Shown one piece after another: positions 1 to 6,583 of a DNA stretch of 6,583 nt (the stretch's first letter is position 1; each line of letters begins with the position of its first letter). The stretch spans positions 1-6,583 of the forward strand of contig JASEIO010000059.1 of NCBI GenBank assembly GCA_030017475.1, read 5' to 3'. Below the pieces are notes generated by a model. It did no database searches and was not told the DNA's origin. It saw only the letters and a list, made by a program, of their open reading frames with translations. Source of the DNA: a bacterium. GTDB taxonomy: Bacteria > UBA9089 > JASEIO01. The position numbers and the translations under genes were made by a program.

Positions 1-183
1 TTGTAACCCATTGATTTTACAGAACTTATTTTTTGAAGTCATGAACTTGGGTTAAAGTCATCGAGGATTTTTTGGTAAACGAGAGAAGTGAAAGATTAGA
101 AAAGGAGATGAGTACGTGGTAAATTAAATAATATAGGCTGGGTTCGGAACTCTGCGGTTGCTTCGTAACCTTGCCCTTCGGGT
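1..183. other. 3' end of an upstream cassette, no confident gene
   Basis: This stretch before the first attC site holds no intact gene on either strand that I can support. Two small TTC-loop hairpins lie next to the attC site. One is GGTTGC/GTAACC around 156-170, with one G-T pair; the other is CCC/GGG at 174-182. They could be part of an extended attC or simply a GC-rich cassette end. An AAAGGAG-like sequence at 101-107 sits directly against an ATG at 108, but that frame has only four codons before a stop, so it is not a gene. The only coding-like signal is the short tail described separately. Confidence 0.5.
2..122 (+). pseudogene. possible C-terminal tail of an upstream cassette gene, perhaps frameshifted
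   Basis: One frame is open from the window edge and ends at the TAA at 53-55 (…LFFEVMNLG). A second frame, opened by the TGA at 42-44, reads TWVKVIEDFLVNERSERLEK… and ends at the TAA at 120-122. Removing one A near 44-45 joins them into one plausible polypeptide end (LFFEVMTWVKVIEDFLV…), rich in charged residues and likely helical. A gene ending here would have the expected position, just upstream of an attC site. The stretch is too short to identify a family, and the reading could be chance. Confidence 0.2.
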
Positions 184-184
184 C

Positions 185-259
185 ATATAACAGCGGATAA
201 AAGGCTTCGCTTCGCCCAAATTGCCTTCGGCAACTTCTTTTATCCGCAAAACGTTAGCT
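185..259 (+). repeat. attC-like recombination site 1
   Basis: The left box ATATAAC (185-191) is followed by one A and then the stem arm GCGGATAAAAG (193-203). The exact complement CTTTTATCCGC lies at 237-247, then a five-base spacer AAAAC and the right box GTTAGCT (253-259). Crossover would fall between G253 and T254. The right box departs from GTTRRRY at one base (C258). The centre contains a TTGCC/GGCAA hairpin at 221-233. This attC belongs to the upstream cassette and forms the left border of cassette A. Its right half, 215-249, is identical over 35 bp to 5227-5261 in attC 3. Confidence 0.8.
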
Positions 260-279
260 GAAATGGCGGTTTTAATAAA

Positions 280-1407
280 ATGAATGAACAACAATTACGA
301 AAGCAAGTTATTAAGGTTTTAAAAGAACAGGGTTTTAAAATAAATCCTCATGTTAGGCCAAGAGGACATAGTAAAACTACATATCGTCAGATTCAGCAAA
401 AGACGAAGTTTGAGCAGATATCTTTGCATAAAAATTTTCTAATAGGTTTTACTAAAAAAGTAAGAGACTATTGTAGAGATGGCAATAAAATCATTCCTAA
501 GGAAATTTCTTTAGAATTAAGAGATGTTCAATCAGGTTCTTTTGAAGAAATTTTATTTAGATGGTGGAACTTAATTTGGTGGAGTATTCCATATCAACGC
601 TCTTATGGTCGCCAGATGAGATTTTTATTATGGGATACAACACATAATGCACCTTTTGGACTAATTTGTTTGCAAAGTCCTGTGCTGAAAATGTCTGTTC
701 GTGACAAAGCACTCGGTTTACCTGAGAATGAATTAGATATATGGGTTAATAGGTCGATGAACGCTCAGCGAGTTGGAGCTTTACCACCGTATAATGAGTT
801 ATTAGGTGGTAAAATGGCTGCCCTCGCCTTGACTTCAAATGAGATAAGAGAAACATATAAAAGAAAATATAAAAACTATGTTACAATCATTAAAAGGAGA
901 AAATTGAAACCCGAACTTTTATTTATTACAACAACAAGTGCCTTTGGAAAAAGCAGCTTATATAACCGTTTGAAATATAATGGTGAAATAGTTGCAGAAA
1001 GTTTGGGTTATACCCAAGGTTCGGGGACATTTCATATCCCGGAAGAATTGTATGTAGAAATTTTAGCTTTTTTGAAGAATAAGGGTTTTAATATTGATAG
1101 AGGTTATGGTCATGGTCCCTCAAGAAAGATGAGGCTAATTGCCCTTGGGCTCCGTTATTTAGGACTACCTTCCTTTGAATATCATAATATCAAAAGAGAG
1201 TTCTACTTATTTCCTCTTGTTAATAATCTAAGAGAGGTTATCCAGAAAAGACAGAAACCCATCTGGGTTGATCGCCCATTCGATGAATTGGTTAATTATT
1301 GGAAAGAAAAATGGGCTATACCAAGGGCAGAGAGAATGCCTAAATGGAGAGATTTTAATAGTGATAAATTTTTTAAAAAGACAGAAAAAATGTTAAAGGA
1401 GTTATAA
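280..1407 (+). CDS. DUF4338 / DruA-like protein (Druantia-type component)
   Basis: This 375-residue protein resembles the DUF4338 family, whose best-known member is DruA of the Druantia anti-phage system. Its biochemical activity is not known to me. Family-like blocks, in order, are YGRQMRFLLWD with the following PFGLICLQSP (about 109-135), RDKALGLP (141-148), NRSMNAQRVGALPPYNELLGGK (157-178) and an ITTTSAFGKSSLYNRL block (216-231). The N-terminal 90 residues are basic and probably helical. No signal peptide or membrane segment is visible, so it is likely cytoplasmic. The ATG at 280 is the first in frame after a TGA at 259-261 that overlaps the attC right box; the Shine-Dalgarno sequence is poor. 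The stop codon abuts the next start, so this is the first gene of a nurA-herA-type operon. The other Druantia genes, notably the large helicase DruE, are absent. Confidence 0.72.
   Translation: MNEQQLRKQVIKVLKEQGFKINPHVRPRGHSKTTYRQIQQKTKFEQISLHKNFLIGFTKKVRDYCRDGNKIIPKEISLELRDVQSGSFEEILFRWWNLIWWSIPYQRSYGRQMRFLLWDTTHNAPFGLICLQSPVLKMSVRDKALGLPENELDIWVNRSMNAQRVGALPPYNELLGGKMAALALTSNEIRETYKRKYKNYVTIIKRRKLKPELLFITTTSAFGKSSLYNRLKYNGEIVAESLGYTQGSGTFHIPEELYVEILAFLKNKGFNIDRGYGHGPSRKMRLIALGLRYLGLPSFEYHNIKREFYLFPLVNNLREVIQKRQKPIWVDRPFDELVNYWKEKWAIPRAERMPKWRDFNSDKFFKKTEKMLKEL
1395..1401 (+). promoter_or_regulatory. ribosome binding site of the nurA-like gene
   Basis: AAAGGAG lies inside the last codons of the DruA-like gene, six bases before the ATG at 1408. 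The ATG follows the TAA of the upstream gene without a gap. This placement fixes the start and supports translational coupling. Confidence 0.8.
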
Positions 1408-2547
1408 ATGGAGAGAGTAAAACAAAACACTTTTGCTGAATTACCAGAAGCCCTTGTAGAAGAAATGCTTTCCAAGAGCGAATTGGCCGGGGATAGGCTT
1501 TATGCTTCTTTTAAGGAAATTCAGAATAATAGAGCTAAGATGCGGAAACAATTACAAGAGCAAAATATATTGAAACAAGATACTGAGGTGGGATACCCAG
1601 GGATACCGACGACTTGTGGAGTAGATGGTTCTTATGCGGTAGAGAAACTTTTAGCAACTGACTTTGCTGCTTGTGCAGCAGTTGCAATTGAAGGACTAAC
1701 TCCACCCTCAGAAAAAAGACATTGGGAGAAACCACACCATAGAGTACTTATTCACCCAGAGAAACATGATTCAGATACAAGCACTGTTATTAGAGGAGTA
1801 ATGATGGAAATGGAGGTTGAACTTGCAGCAAGGGCGCCACACGATATAGTTTTTTTAGATGGTTCTCTTACAACACCTCTAATATACATGAACCAGGCGA
1901 TAAACAAGGTATCAGAATCAGACGAAACAATCATTGGAAAGAGCCTTGTAGAAAAATTCAAGGACTTTCTTGATTCATATAAAACAATATTAGAATCATC
2001 CCGAACCGATAAATTATGGGTAAGTATGCCAAAATATACCACGAGAAGAGAGTTAGGCAAAAAACTCAACTGGCCATCTCATTACGATGATAGAGCAATC
2101 CTGACAACTATTTTATCCTCAGGTGAATTTACCTTACCAATCTCATTAGAAGAACCTCAGCAGCCCTGGCACTTAAAACTTCCTTCCAATGATAAAGAAC
2201 TCGAAAGATTAAGAGAGGAGGTACTACCAGATATAAAGAGGCTTTATGTCTTGTATTACAAACCACACAATTGGACACCGGCTTTTAGAATTGAAATGGC
2301 ATCTTCTATCGCCACAAACAATTCTCGGATAGCAATATTACTTCAAGGTCTCAAATATCAATGCGGCACACCTGGTATTCTTGAACCCTATCCTCTCTAT
2401 ATGGCAGACCGTATGGTAAAACACCTTGGGAGTGCTATTCCTACATTTAGGCAAACATCTACTAGGCGAATGGCAGAACTACATCAAGGAGATATAGGAG
2501 AAATATTTTTTAGTATGCATAGTTATAGAAGCGAAAGCGGGAGGTAA
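1408..2547 (+). CDS. nurA: NurA-type nuclease
   Basis: This 379-residue protein has the layout of the NurA family, metal-dependent 5'-3' nucleases with an RNase H-like fold that work with the HerA translocase on DNA ends. The first acidic motif is CGVDGSYAVEKL, with D73-G74-S75. The second is DIVFLDGSLTTPL, with D151-G152-S153. A C-terminal EPYPLYMADRMVKH block carries D334, in the position of the conserved late NurA motif. The first 65 residues are charged and probably helical. No membrane segment is seen. It starts immediately after the DruA-like gene and ends two bases before the herA-like start, so the nuclease and motor are co-translated. Known NurA-HerA pairs process DNA ends in archaea; some bacterial pairs lie in defence loci. 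The family call is firm, but metal-binding competence has not been tested by alignment. Confidence 0.85.
   Translation: MERVKQNTFAELPEALVEEMLSKSELAGDRLYASFKEIQNNRAKMRKQLQEQNILKQDTEVGYPGIPTTCGVDGSYAVEKLLATDFAACAAVAIEGLTPPSEKRHWEKPHHRVLIHPEKHDSDTSTVIRGVMMEMEVELAARAPHDIVFLDGSLTTPLIYMNQAINKVSESDETIIGKSLVEKFKDFLDSYKTILESSRTDKLWVSMPKYTTRRELGKKLNWPSHYDDRAILTTILSSGEFTLPISLEEPQQPWHLKLPSNDKELERLREEVLPDIKRLYVLYYKPHNWTPAFRIEMASSIATNNSRIAILLQGLKYQCGTPGILEPYPLYMADRMVKHLGSAIPTFRQTSTRRMAELHQGDIGEIFFSMHSYRSESGR
2539..2544 (+). promoter_or_regulatory. ribosome binding site of the herA-like gene
   Basis: GGGAGG lies just before the TAA of the nurA-like gene and five bases upstream of the ATG at 2550. Only two bases separate that stop from this start, so ribosomes ending on one gene can start the next. 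Confidence 0.8.
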
Positions 2548-2549
2548 AT

Positions 2550-4307
2550 ATGAGTGGCGAAAGAACCAATATTGAGCAATTAATCAGTTCATCTGAGCGA
2601 ATTGGAACGATAGGTTCACCTTCTTCTACCAGCGGACTTTCTTTAGATATTCTTGGAACAGCGGTTGGCAAAAAACTTGTAGGAGAACTTGCCTTTTTTA
2701 GATTTTCTCAGGATGGCAAACCACATTATGCATTAGGACAAATAACAGAAGTTCAACTTAAGAATATCTGGCTTGAAGACCCAACAATGAGGTCTCTTGC
2801 ACGACAAAGAGGGCAGGTTAATCCTGTAAGTGGACAGCAAGATACTCACCTTGGGGATATGACGGTAAGTGCAGTATTTAGTGACGATGCTAATAGATTT
2901 GAACCAAGTATTTTGGGGACTGTTCCAGCCACAGGAACATTTATCCATTTAGCTACTGATCAAATACTAGATAGGTTGCTAGAAAGATACCAAGATGAAA
3001 TTTTTTACTTGGGTTATGTCTATGGTTCAACACCCAAATTGCCTCTCTGGTTTAAGCACTTTGGGACAGAACCGCATGGAGCCGGTGAAGCATATCACCT
3101 CGGAATCTTCGGTAAAACTGGTTCTGGTAAATCAGTTCTGGCAAAGATGATCCTTTTGGCCTATGCAAGATATTCAGATATGGCTATATTTGTAATAGAC
3201 CCTCAAGGTGAGTTTAGTAAGGATATAAGCGGACAACTAGCAATGGAAGGATTTCCATTGCATTTGGGTAATATTTTAAAAAGTTTAAACAAGAATGTTA
3301 TACCTATTAGTGTTATAAATTTAGTTCTTGATAGATGGGATCTTTTCGAGCATATACTTGCACAATCAGATTTCTTTGAGCGACTTGCCATTCACACGGC
3401 AGATAAAAAAATGTTAGCCGCTGAAGTTTTGAGGGAAAATCTAGAGAGAAGGCATGTTAGACTTTCCGATTTACATACACAAGAGGCTTTCCAAACAACA
3501 TGGAGTATATTACAGGAAGAAAGAGTTTTGAAACAGATCTATTCTGGTGCTGAATACAGGAACCGCCTTCTCGATATGATCAATCAAACTGATTCCAATG
3601 ATCATTATCAAACATACTGGTTGCCAGTTTGTAGGTTATTTCAGAGTAATAGGCAAAATGCCGTCACAGTAGATAGTCTCCTAAGACAGGCCTTTACACA
3701 ACAGCAAACAAAACCTGTGATAATAGTAAATGTTTCTCGTGAAAAAGCAAGAAAAGACGACTTTTATTGGAATGATATTATACAAGCTTTAGTAATAAAA
3801 AGGCTTTTAGATGGAATAAATCTTCAAGCGGAATCAAATTATCAAGGAAATAGAAGTTTAAATACACTTGTAATAATAGATGAAGCCCATAGATTTGCAC
3901 CACGCGAGAAGCCAGAACAGGAAGAACTTAAGCAAGTGGGGGAAACTCTTGTTAGAGCGTCAAAGGAAACAAGAAAATACGGCCTTGGATGGATGTTTAT
4001 CAGTCAGACTCTATCAAGTTTACATAGAGAAATTATCGGACAATTGCGAACTTTCTTCTTCGGATTCGGCTTGGCCTTAGGGACTGAGTTTATGTCCTTG
4101 AAAGAAATCGTTGGAGGAGACCCTAATGCTCTTAAACTTTATCAATCATTTCGTGATCCCCATAGCACCTTTGATATAGCTTCTCGACAATATTCTTTTA
4201 TGACTATTGGCCCAGTTTCTCCTCTTTCCTTTGCTGGCACGCCCTTATTCCTAACAGCGTTCAATACTCCTGAGGAATTTCTCAGAATAAATAAATTAGG
4301 ATTATGA
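2550..4307 (+). CDS. herA: HerA-type DNA translocase ATPase with HAS barrel
   Basis: This 585-residue protein is a HerA/FtsK-superfamily ATPase, expected to form a hexamer that pumps or opens double-stranded DNA and to dock with NurA. The N-terminal region (about 25-140) fits a HAS barrel, including the ILGTVPATGTFIHLAT stretch. The Walker A motif is GKTGSGKS at 188-195. A DPQGEF element follows at 217-222, as in HerA proteins. The Walker B motif is LVIIDEAHRF, with D444 and E445. Next come a KETRKYGLGWMFISQT block and a GQLRTFFFGFGLA block, the usual sensor and arginine-finger region. All ATPase motifs look intact. The region between about 235 and 405 has no motif I recognise and may hold a family-specific insertion. 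It is the last gene of the operon; attC 2 begins about 40 bp after its TGA. Confidence 0.93.
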   Translation: MSGERTNIEQLISSSERIGTIGSPSSTSGLSLDILGTAVGKKLVGELAFFRFSQDGKPHYALGQITEVQLKNIWLEDPTMRSLARQRGQVNPVSGQQDTHLGDMTVSAVFSDDANRFEPSILGTVPATGTFIHLATDQILDRLLERYQDEIFYLGYVYGSTPKLPLWFKHFGTEPHGAGEAYHLGIFGKTGSGKSVLAKMILLAYARYSDMAIFVIDPQGEFSKDISGQLAMEGFPLHLGNILKSLNKNVIPISVINLVLDRWDLFEHILAQSDFFERLAIHTADKKMLAAEVLRENLERRHVRLSDLHTQEAFQTTWSILQEERVLKQIYSGAEYRNRLLDMINQTDSNDHYQTYWLPVCRLFQSNRQNAVTVDSLLRQAFTQQQTKPVIIVNVSREKARKDDFYWNDIIQALVIKRLLDGINLQAESNYQGNRSLNTLVIIDEAHRFAPREKPEQEELKQVGETLVRASKETRKYGLGWMFISQTLSSLHREIIGQLRTFFFGFGLALGTEFMSLKEIVGGDPNALKLYQSFRDPHSTFDIASRQYSFMTIGPVSPLSFAGTPLFLTAFNTPEEFLRINKLGL

Positions 4308-4346
4308 ACGAAATGAATTGTCAAATGGTTGTAAAACTGCCACTTC

Positions 4347-4422
4347 ATATAACACAGTATATACGCTACGGCTTACGCCTCGCCCTTCGGTCACAACGTC
4401 GTATATGCTGGAGCCGTTAGAC
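4347..4422 (+). repeat. attC-like recombination site 2 (of cassette A)
   Basis: The left box ATATAAC (4347-4353) is followed by one A and the stem arm CAGTATATAC (4355-4364). The pairing arm GTATATGCTG is at 4401-4410, nine Watson-Crick pairs plus one G-T. A five-base spacer GAGCC precedes the right box GTTAGAC (4416-4422), which matches GTTRRRY exactly. The architecture equals that of the other three sites, but the stem sequence is unrelated to their GCGGATAAAAG stem. Crossover would fall between G4416 and T4417. This is the 3' end of the DruA-like/NurA/HerA cassette. Confidence 0.8.
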
Positions 4423-4455
4423 GAAATGCTCACTTCGGGGTAAAATATAAAAAAT

Positions 4456-4470: not shown

Positions 4471-5058
4471 ATGAACATGTTAACTACCTCTCTATTCGGC
4501 CTTTTACTTGCATTTTTGTTACCCATAGGCCTGGTAACTATTATTTTAGGTTGTATCTGTAAATGGAGAGAAAATACTTACGCAGCCTTTTTTACTTATG
4601 GACTTTCTAATTGGATAACCTTTGTATTATTACTATTGTTCTTTTTCCCCAAGCTTGGTTTAAGTTTATCAGATGTGGGTTTTAAAAGTACAATCACTCT
4701 GGAAGAAATTTCCTTAGCATTACTTTTTACTTTAGCTGGCTTCGGTTGGTTTGCTTTGATGGAAAAGCTTAAAGTCTTAGAAATGAGGGGGATGGATTTC
4801 AAAATTGCCAATTGGAAACATATAGTTATTCTTTCTTTTTATGCACCGGTAACTGCTGCATTCTGTGAAGAGTTTTTCTATCGGGGGTTTGCCATCACCA
4901 CTTTAGGCTCTATACTTGGAAATTTTTGGATTGCTGGTATAATTTCATGTTTTGCTTTTGCGTTTTTACATCTTCCATATTTTTTAAAAATTAGGTGGAT
5001 GTGTACAAATCGGGATCTGGGGTCTTTTTCCTATGATATTGTTCATAATTACTGGTAG
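4471..5058 (+). CDS. CPBP-family intramembrane metalloprotease, truncated by frameshift
   Basis: This frame encodes 195 residues of a multi-pass membrane protein of the CPBP (CAAX protease and bacteriocin-processing, Rce1-like) family. Hydrophobic segments lie at roughly 7-30, 40-62, 78-97, 115-131 and 143-166. The first catalytic motif is EEFFYRG, with E133, E134 and R138. The second is FAFLHLPYF, with H167. After residue 174 the reading becomes non-family sequence and stops at the TAG at 5056. The missing fourth motif is present one frame over (see the next entry). Removing one base from the T6A5 tract at 4980-4990 restores a 227-residue protein, a normal family length. Bacterial members can give bacteriocin self-immunity or process membrane proteins; the substrate here is unknown. 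The shift may be real decay or an assembly error in a homopolymer. Confidence 0.88.
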   Translation: MNMLTTSLFGLLLAFLLPIGLVTIILGCICKWRENTYAAFFTYGLSNWITFVLLLLFFFPKLGLSLSDVGFKSTITLEEISLALLFTLAGFGWFALMEKLKVLEMRGMDFKIANWKHIVILSFYAPVTAAFCEEFFYRGFAITTLGSILGNFWIAGIISCFAFAFLHLPYFLKIRWMCTNRDLGSFSYDIVHNYW

Positions 5059-5155
5059 TATATATCCTGGACTAATTATGCATTTTTTGAATAACATTTT
5101 TGCGTATATCTTGCGTCCACTATTCTTAACGAAATCAGCGAGATTGAGAGGTTAA
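4988..5155 (+). pseudogene. out-of-frame C-terminal part of the CPBP protease
   Basis: This stretch in the +1 frame reads KLGGCVQIGIWGLFPMIL, then ITGSIYPGLIMHFLNNIFAY, and ends at the TAA at 5153-5155. The H and N of IMHFLNN (codons at 5081 and 5090-5095) are the last conserved CPBP motif. The join FLHLPYFLKLGG is exactly what the family shows at this point. There is no separate start signal, so it is the tail of the gene above and not a gene of its own. The repaired gene would end 36 bp before attC 3. Confidence 0.85.
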
Positions 5156-5191
5156 TGGAGAAGAAAATGATGCCCTTTCGTTCACACTATC

Positions 5192-5271: not shown

Positions 5272-6321
5272 TACGCAATCGGCTTCGGGACGCAAAAATT
5301 TATTTATTCAATAGTTTTAAAGATAATATAATGGACATATTAAACCTAATTTCATTAGTTGTTGGTACAGTTATTAGTATTGCTGGCATCTGGATCGGAT
5401 ATAAAATAGCCAAGAAATCTGGAGCCTTTAGGAAAGTTAAGCTCGATATTTCTTTAATGAACCAATCTCTAATTCCCGATCCCCAATTTGAACAGATTAT
5501 TTATGGTTATTCAGTAGAGGAGAATGCTATAGCCTTATGTATTCTTCCGTTTATGATAAAAAATGCGGGAGAGCTATCGGCAAAGAATGTTAATATCAGA
5601 TTAGCTATACCCTTAGGTCTTAGAGAATTTAAAGCATCTATTGACGAGGAAGAACTTTTTAAACGGATGGACATATTTGGAGGTTATGACAAATCAGACA
5701 TTAAAAGAAGAGCATATAAATTTGGAGGTGTTCGGCATATCGATTATGTAATTCCTGCTATAAACCCAAGAAGTAGTGTTGTAATAGAGGAAGCAATTGA
5801 TATTACTAATGCATCTGGTATGCCGTTTAAAGTAAACGCTATTAGCAAAGATGGCGTTCCACTCCAAGTCAAGGGTTATTTAAAATGGTCTGCTCCTTCA
5901 ATATATGTTGGAGTATCGGCTACCGATGTAGAACCAATTGGGGGGTATTTTTGGGTTAGGTCGTATCAAGTAAAGGACAAGGAAGAATTAGGAGAGAAAA
6001 TCATGGAGGATGAAACACAAGCTTTAAGAGAAGAACTCTCTAAAATAGGGGCTCCCAAAGGATTTGTATCAAAAGTTTACGCTCCTGGTATTAGCAAGAA
6101 GGCCATTGTTATAATACCAAAGCTGGAAAAGGCTCTAAAGCCAAAAGCATATGCGACCATTAAGAGGCCAATCTATATGGAAGAACCTGAGAAATCTGAG
6201 AGATGGTTAATTGGTAATGTTAAAAAGAAATAAAATGTCCCTTCGCCGACAGCATATAATAGCGGATAAAAGGCTTGGCTTCGCCAAAATTTGCTAACAA
6301 ACTTCTTTTATCCGCAAACCG
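5266..6321 (+). mobile_element. integron cassette C: membrane-anchored hypothetical protein
   Basis: The segment between the crossover points of attC 3 and attC 4 is about 1.06 kb, with one + strand gene and attC 4 at its end. The 59 bp between the right box and the ATG hold a short CGGCTTCGGG stretch followed by AT-rich sequence. No clear Shine-Dalgarno or promoter is seen. Confidence 0.7.
5331..6233 (+). CDS. hypothetical protein with one N-terminal membrane anchor
   Basis: I do not recognise this 300-residue protein. Residues 4-26 form one hydrophobic segment (LISLVVGTVISIAGIWIGY), followed by a basic stretch, KIAKKSGAFRKVK. By the positive-inside rule this suggests an uncleaved anchor with the large C-terminal part in the cytoplasm. 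The middle (about 60-200) alternates hydrophobic and polar residues as in beta-rich domains, for example AKNVNIRLAIPLGLREF and the HIDYVIPAINPRSSVVIEEA region. A charged, probably helical part follows (about 220-240), then a basic tail ending VKKK. No catalytic motif is apparent. The Shine-Dalgarno is poor and the ATG is simply the first good start in frame. It is the only gene of its cassette; the TAA lies about 20 bp before attC 4. A defence or sensing role is possible but unsupported. Confidence 0.8.
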   Translation: MDILNLISLVVGTVISIAGIWIGYKIAKKSGAFRKVKLDISLMNQSLIPDPQFEQIIYGYSVEENAIALCILPFMIKNAGELSAKNVNIRLAIPLGLREFKASIDEEELFKRMDIFGGYDKSDIKRRAYKFGGVRHIDYVIPAINPRSSVVIEEAIDITNASGMPFKVNAISKDGVPLQVKGYLKWSAPSIYVGVSATDVEPIGGYFWVRSYQVKDKEELGEKIMEDETQALREELSKIGAPKGFVSKVYAPGISKKAIVIIPKLEKALKPKAYATIKRPIYMEEPEKSERWLIGNVKKK

Positions 6322-6327: not shown

Positions 6328-6376
6328 GCAATGCTGTGCCTAAAAAGAAAGGACTAATCCTGTGGAGAATCTAACC

Positions 6377-6583
6377 ATGAGTGAAAAGGAATGGTTTAAC
6401 AAAGGTGTTGAGCTTGGCAAGCTTAGGAGACATAAAGAAGCGATAAAGGCTTTCGAGAAAGCCATTGAGATAAATCCACAGTATGCCGAAGCCTGGGTTA
6501 ACAAAGGTTTTTGCCTTGGCGAGCTTGGGATAGATGAAGAAGCGATAAAGGCTTTCGAGAAAGCCATTGAGATAAATCCACAG
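6377..6583 (+). CDS. tetratricopeptide-repeat (TPR) protein, N-terminal part
   Basis: The first 69 residues of an open frame that runs off the window. Two TPR units of 34 residues are visible, about 5-35 and 39-69. Each has the W-x3-G start (W6 and W40) and the EAIKAFEKAIEINP end. TPR proteins are protein-binding scaffolds; the partner cannot be told from this. No signal peptide is seen. GGAG at 6364-6367 favours the ATG at 6377. A GTG at 6362, in frame and eight bases after AAAGGA (6348-6353), is a real alternative and would add five residues (VENLT). The near-identical repeat units suggest recent expansion by tandem duplication. Confidence 0.85.
   Translation, partial: MSEKEWFNKGVELGKLRRHKEAIKAFEKAIEINPQYAEAWVNKGFCLGELGIDEEAIKAFEKAIEINPQ
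6437..6583 (+). repeat. two identical 45-bp copies within TPR units
   Basis: Positions 6437-6481 and 6539-6583 are identical at all 45 bases, spaced 102 bp apart, which is one 34-codon TPR unit. The intervening half-units differ. Synonymous positions are conserved too, so this reflects recent duplication or gene conversion and not only protein selection. Confidence 0.9.

Follow-up and report, generated by a model that had tools for sequence, protein, structure and literature searches.

DruA encoded with the NurA-HerA nuclease-motor pair in an integron cassette: a candidate mobile defence system

Type I Druantia is encoded by the genes druABCDE. A type IV, added by PADLOC, consists of DruE, DruF, and DruL (PMC8565338) and is unlike the DruA-NurA-HerA trio analyzed here. 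The trio shares a full-length DruA with type I; however, no druB, druC, or druD gene is present in its cassette, no DruE is encoded in the window or in the genome, and HerA and NurA serve as motor and nuclease. According to the titles cited in PMC11291478, HerA and NurA are an established DNA end-resection pair of archaea and bacteria. Like the complexes of the Sulfolobus, Pyrococcus, and Deinococcus type, the trio has adjacent genes for a motor and a nuclease and retains the conserved catalytic residues, but its NurA is distant (PDB profile E 0.16) and has DruA as the linked partner, and the locus is mobile and patchily distributed. The linkage to Mre11-Rad50, a feature of archaeal HerA-NurA, was not found: no mre11 or rad50 gene lies in the cassette or the window. 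A HerA-family pump beside an effector enzyme is also a property of the SIR2-HerA, DUF4297-HerA, DndFGH, HerA/FtsK capture, and BRC systems. Some HerA-based defence systems have a GNAT partner, and a GNAT together with HerA/FtsK has been found in predicted BRC systems (PMC12839542); in the trio, the partner with a predicted GNAT fold is DruA. Its effector is NurA and not SIR2, DUF4297, or a restriction endonuclease, and neither a SIR2 nor a DUF4297 domain was found in the three proteins by Pfam and PADLOC. Additionally, Mom-type GNATs coupled to nucleases have been described (PMC7824862). Chromosomal integrons, finally, can carry defence genes in attC-bounded cassettes within arrays; the trio has the same setting, although its cassette is unusually long and holds three genes.

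The window, i.e., the whole stretch of DNA analyzed (6,583 nucleotides), is one entire contig (C66) of a 1.64-Mb draft genome consisting of 111 contigs. The following features were found in it.

179..267, + strand: attC site 1, left border of the trio cassette; imperfect palindrome, CM R1 99.8 bits, bottom-strand fold z=-3.1
254..4416 (about), + strand: integron gene cassette with all three genes, ~4.2 kb (4.16), from the GTTA core of attC site 1 to that of attC site 2
280..1407, + strand: DruA-like protein (DUF4338/PF14236), 375 aa; Pfam E=9.4e-70, PADLOC DruA1 E=1e-86
505..1245, + strand: DruA residues 76-322, predicted GNAT-fold core; AlphaFold2 pLDDT 93.4, pTM 0.90
1408..2547, + strand: NurA-type nuclease, 379 aa; Pfam PF09376 E=1.5e-12
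1624..1626, + strand: NurA D73 (DGS motif 1), aligned with the DG motif of solved NurA; 100% in 44 loci
1813..1815, + strand: NurA E136, matching the conserved Glu of solved NurA; 98% in 44 loci
1858..1860, + strand: NurA D151 (DGS motif 2); 100% in 44 loci
2550..4307, + strand: HerA-type hexameric motor ATPase (DUF87), 585 aa; Pfam PF01935 E=3e-10
3111..3134, + strand: HerA Walker A motif GKTGSGKS, residues 188-195; K194 at 100% in about 44 trio loci
3225..3749, + strand: HerA residues 226-400, fast-evolving insert amid conserved motor segments
3879..3884, + strand: HerA Walker B D444-E445; 100% in 42 loci
4341..4430, + strand: attC site 2, right border of the trio cassette; CM R1 85.9 bits
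5186..5279, + strand: attC site 3, array context; CM R1 85.0 bits
6248..6335, + strand: attC site 4, array context; CM R1 94.9 bits

The genes for DruA, NurA, and HerA are all intact and arranged head to tail with gaps of 0 bp and then 2 bp. The three Pfam matches exceed the curated cut-offs, and HerA also matches its PADLOC model (E=3.6e-18); no NCBIfam family was found for DruA or NurA. The first-pass annotation had described a three-gene operon here, and its coordinates, gaps, and domains were all reproduced. The lack of DruE, the usual partner of DruA, which it had also pointed out, extends to the whole genome: no match to the MZB/DUF1998 domains of DruE-type proteins was found there, and the same search was positive in 8 of 14 control genomes. 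The genome encodes a single NurA and no second intact DruA; a short degraded DruA-family match (48.8 bits, one stop) is located near flagellar genes (L002, G000:C56:4961-5146). A promoter scan gave a result no better than shuffles.

The attC sites framing the trio were absent from the first-pass annotation and were identified in the follow-up. The four attC-like palindromes of the window share one stem. In integrons, the bottom strand is the one recombined; folding of this strand is far above shuffles for three of the four sites, and only site 2, whose stem has compensatory changes relative to other attC sites, folds poorly. For site 1, the recombination point is predicted between G253 and T254. 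Since attC sites lie on both flanks, the trio fills one cassette. Six further attC sites were found by the covariance model elsewhere in the genome. No intact integron integrase gene intI was found in the 111-contig draft; tyrosine-recombinase fragments scoring under the IntI cut-off are present near an attC-like site (G000:C31:9365-9945 and 11505-11607). The product of the cassette after the trio (window 4471-5160) is a CPBP/Rce1-like membrane protease (Pfam E=5e-9), seemingly frameshifted near the C-terminus, the continuation (...PGLIMHFLNNIFAYIL) being in a different frame. It is followed by a cassette for a 300-aa protein with zero Pfam matches (5331-6233) and by a cassette with the start of a TPR-repeat protein (6362-6583).

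The NurA protein aligns with solved NurA structures at both DG motifs and at the Glu between them, and HerA aligns with defence-associated and archaeal HerA structures (PDB profile E to 5.8e-15). The HerA Walker motifs that the first-pass annotation had read as intact are present, as are the NurA residues D73 and D151 that it had named as targets for mutation; HerA K194 and NurA D73 and D151 are invariant in about 44 loci. In nine close trios, the HerA insert has a pairwise identity of 0.47-0.67, whereas most of the motor core on either side of it reaches 0.75-0.98; the insert could be a contact surface.

Two AlphaFold2 models of DruA were built, the first from 11 sequences and the better one from 51. 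The top rows of VIA-align searches against the PDB were nearly all GNAT acyltransferases for these models. Mom of phage Mu (8bv8) was first for both, with Z 9.8 and 10.2 (176 residues aligned at Z 10.2), and its alignment was the longest to a small single-domain protein; its lead over other GNATs is below 1 Z, i.e., a tie. Mom is a DNA-modifying GNAT that acts on adenine. DruA differs from it in extra N- and C-terminal helical parts, and no sequence similarity between the two was found. Foldseek alone gave nothing under E 0.001 for the models, and a sequence search of the PDB using the DruA profile found nothing credible. When profiles of Mom or of generic GNATs were compared with that of DruA, there was zero signal, but the Mom-GNAT positive control failed likewise, and this comparison is therefore without power. 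Among Pfam families, DruA matches only PF14236 and not the Mom family PF25680, which Mu Mom itself matches with E=2e-75. Aravind and co-workers remark in passing that DUF4338, which they class as a GNAT domain, is found as a fusion with some DndF proteins (PMC10853773). Thus, DruA is predicted by modeling to have a GNAT acyltransferase fold. Given this prediction, an enzymatic role, modifying or licensing, would be at least as plausible as the pure recognition of the first-pass model, in which DruA would recognize the DNA and HerA-NurA would degrade it. Structural matches of DruA were also found in BFVD for the giant viruses Faunusvirus, Yasminevirus, and Dasosvirus (E down to 5e-17), which suggests, at the level of predicted structures, DruA-like proteins in giant viruses of eukaryotes.

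For analysis of the genomic context, a DruA alignment was scanned against 84,980 species genomes, and the best 80 of 372 relatives were kept; neighborhoods were readable for 70 of these 80. NurA and HerA genes on the same strand, no more than three genes from druA, were found in 48 of the 70. The order is DruA-NurA-HerA in 43 trios and NurA-HerA-DruA in five, and the genes mostly overlap or lie a few bases apart. Chance adjacency is rejected, since dozens of genomes share this gene order. The first-pass annotation had proposed to look for such co-occurrence and had considered that DruA-like genes might never adjoin nurA-herA elsewhere; the recurrent linkage contradicts the latter. Among the best 80 relatives, trio hosts belong to about a dozen bacterial phyla and two archaeal lineages, most loci coming from metagenome-assembled genomes, so that individual labels may be wrong. 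Copies are also carried by the isolates Thermanaerothrix daxensis (L061), Thermogemmatispora tikiterensis (L080), and Thermovorax subterraneus (L093). One near-identical clade spans Acidobacteriota, Deltaproteobacteria, Zixibacteria, Nitrospirota, Kapaibacterium, and one archaeon. In an independent sample of 386 genomes, DruA was found in 11, adjoined by NurA-HerA in 10; in the eleventh carrier, its neighbors are a PD-(D/E)XK-like protein and a helicase resembling DruE. In the reverse search, DruA was found in seven of the ten genomes carrying NurA of the window type. For G016, a contig end leaves only the 3' end of druA, judged from an antisense translation matching that of the window. NurA-HerA without DruA was found in two genomes (G054 and G163) and on large plasmids (L008-L010), and NurA alone in G219. 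Thus, NurA-HerA pairs of the same type occur without DruA, and DruA is not obligatory.

A neighboring DruE was found for seven of the 70 DruA relatives, and the remainder have other partners. A few close DruA proteins, such as that of L041, have no NurA-HerA nearby. L031 and L091 may represent another Druantia variant, in which DruA adjoins both a helicase resembling DruE and an AddB/Cas4-like protein of the PD-(D/E)XK type. In L089, L112, and L076, NurA-HerA is absent, and the gene after druA encodes a very large protein of up to 2630 aa that is truncated at the contig end. In Pseudomonadota (L090, L102, L110, and L075), DruA faces a conserved cluster for proteins of about 370-406, 383, and 880 aa, which is also present in viral contigs L231/L232. 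DruA matches on plasmids of Pseudomonas putida, Nitrosococcus, and Meiothermus were set aside, as they adjoin DEAD/DEAH helicases (Druantia-type) and not NurA-HerA.

Protein distance matrices were compared over 38 complete trios with 2000 permutations. The distances correlate at r=0.90 for NurA-HerA, 0.68 for DruA-NurA, and 0.52 for DruA-HerA, values reached by none of the 2000 permutations. In three loci the partners have been exchanged (L053, L055, and L107): their DruA is 41-52% identical to that of the window and their NurA only 22-24%; L095 is re-paired in the opposite sense. In all, DruA is linked to three NurA-HerA lineages, and the re-pairing has taken place inside one of them. The second includes L033, L032, L028, and L105, with both NurA and HerA of L033 recognized by Pfam; the third includes L034, L106, and L113, with HerA of L034 recognized by Pfam and its NurA-like neighbor not. 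On the DruA tree, the NurA-HerA label requires 9 changes, versus 21.4 for shuffled labels. The distance correlation, the re-pairing, the additional lineages, and the clustered label together indicate that the association is old, repeated, and modular.

Within the phylum, NurA of this type was found in only four of 19 genomes. The first-pass annotation had allowed for a housekeeping locus fixed in all relatives; the trio occupies unrelated sites instead. In a related genome of a different family (G007/L012), the trio is 72-76% identical to that of the window. An attC site 43 bp 3' of herA (12046-12131) makes it a second integron-cassette trio, and attC-bounded genes (HicAB-like, MNT/HEPN) lie 5' of it. 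An attC site just before this trio is apparently split (L012:7496-7932), its first half lying around 7500-7540 and an R'-like end around 7917-7932, and appears as if disrupted by insertion. In G015 and G016, the trio adjoins panB, with HEPN-MNT genes there in G015. NurA-HerA, with or without DruA, is located at or near panB in L013, L011, L014, and L133 (three genomes, two phyla), and the panB neighborhood is a possible insertion hotspot. Two viral contigs, L235 and L236, carry the trio; scans of viral contigs that used NurA by itself or an alignment of six NurA sequences found no relatives, and the same was true for phage records. Some trios are interrupted by further genes, for a GmrSD restriction enzyme (L045:10284-12056), a Sacsin+NOV_C (TmtA-like) protein (L037:9134-12265), a similar protein of about 1050 aa (L044:2769-5933), or a pentapeptide-repeat protein (L038:5817-8114). 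Restriction-type insertions are what a defence locus would show. The enrichment in defence islands that the first-pass annotation had proposed to test stands only as suggestive: in the genes flanking the 48 trios, 155 PADLOC models were matched versus 67 in a small and taxonomically narrow control dominated by one cas1 locus, these being counts of models and not of individual members.

Several other readings of the trio were weighed. DruA could be a Mom-like enzyme that acyl-modifies bases of host DNA, leaving NurA-HerA to degrade unmarked DNA much as in restriction-modification. The GNAT-fold model with Mom ranked first twice, the known coupling of Mom-type GNATs to nucleases, and the joint occurrence of GNAT and HerA/FtsK in predicted BRC systems all speak for this; however, Mom is tied with other GNATs, no signal exists at the sequence level, DruA falls outside the Mom Pfam family, and NurA-HerA pairs lacking DruA would be odd if DruA protected self. 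On balance, we consider it unlikely, albeit the foremost of the rivals. A broader form, in which a DNA-modifying DruA would introduce a new base modification and HerA-NurA would read either the mark or its absence as motor-driven restriction, is a speculative and rather doubtful proposal; if true, it would account for what DruA does in Druantia as well.

Processing of double-strand breaks, with DruA joining NurA-HerA in a repair or end-resection operon as in archaea, would agree with the established function of the pair and its intact catalytic residues. It fits poorly with transfer between phyla and between domains with about 70% identity, the absence of mre11 and rad50 beside the trio, and a genome that has no other NurA while most relatives miss the trio altogether. 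The unrelated sites, the patchiness, the second integron cassette, the viral contigs, and the inserted restriction-type genes make a housekeeping repair locus unlikely, and we regard this explanation as improbable. Little probability is also given to a module that serves its carrier (integron, plasmid, or phage) against rivals or in processing of the carrier's own DNA, with protection of the cell being incidental: the integron array, the two viral contigs, and the large plasmids lacking DruA are compatible with it, but most copies seem chromosomal and no consistent mobile-element genes lie alongside. An independent DruA, for instance a toxin or a transposition-related protein, that merely travels with NurA-HerA is the least credible reading, and very improbable. 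DruA does occur alone, with DruE, or with large uncharacterized proteins, but the near-zero-gap linkage on one strand in tens of loci, its recurrence with three separate NurA-HerA lineages, and the strong clustering of the partner label on the DruA tree argue against it.

The preferred reading, to which we assign a probability of roughly 0.6, is a mobile three-gene system that guards the cell against invading DNA (phage, plasmid, or other mobile element), with HerA-NurA degrading this DNA and DruA providing or gating specificity. It builds on computed features: gene content, catalytic residues, recurrent linkage, re-pairing, mobility, and the predicted GNAT fold. HerA, as a hexameric DNA pump, and NurA, as a nuclease, would form a motor-nuclease complex of a known type and degrade the DNA threaded into it; conserved active sites and established knowledge of HerA-NurA point to this effector part. 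DruA would give or gate specificity and trigger degradation, either by an acyl mark placed on DNA or protein or as a catalytically dead reader, and its role as the specificity or licensing component is hypothetical. By analogy, the occurrence of DruA in Druantia and of HerA in known defence systems favors a probable role in defence. The new composition proposed by the first-pass annotation is upheld as conserved, mobile, and patchy, with defence as a candidate role. In the literature searched, a scope outside which subscription papers and preprints lie, no description of DruA with NurA and HerA as a system was found; the trio is accordingly presented as an undescribed HerA-family defence candidate with a Druantia subunit, priority being not proven.

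If the preferred reading is true, the trio would add a widespread defence system to those of bacteria and archaea, often in thermophilic or uncultured lineages, and the Druantia protein DruA would also function outside Druantia, in company with another motor. The three-protein setting makes the function of DruA testable. It also places HerA-NurA, a pair known for end resection, in a bacterial setting where it may serve immunity, carried on integron cassettes.
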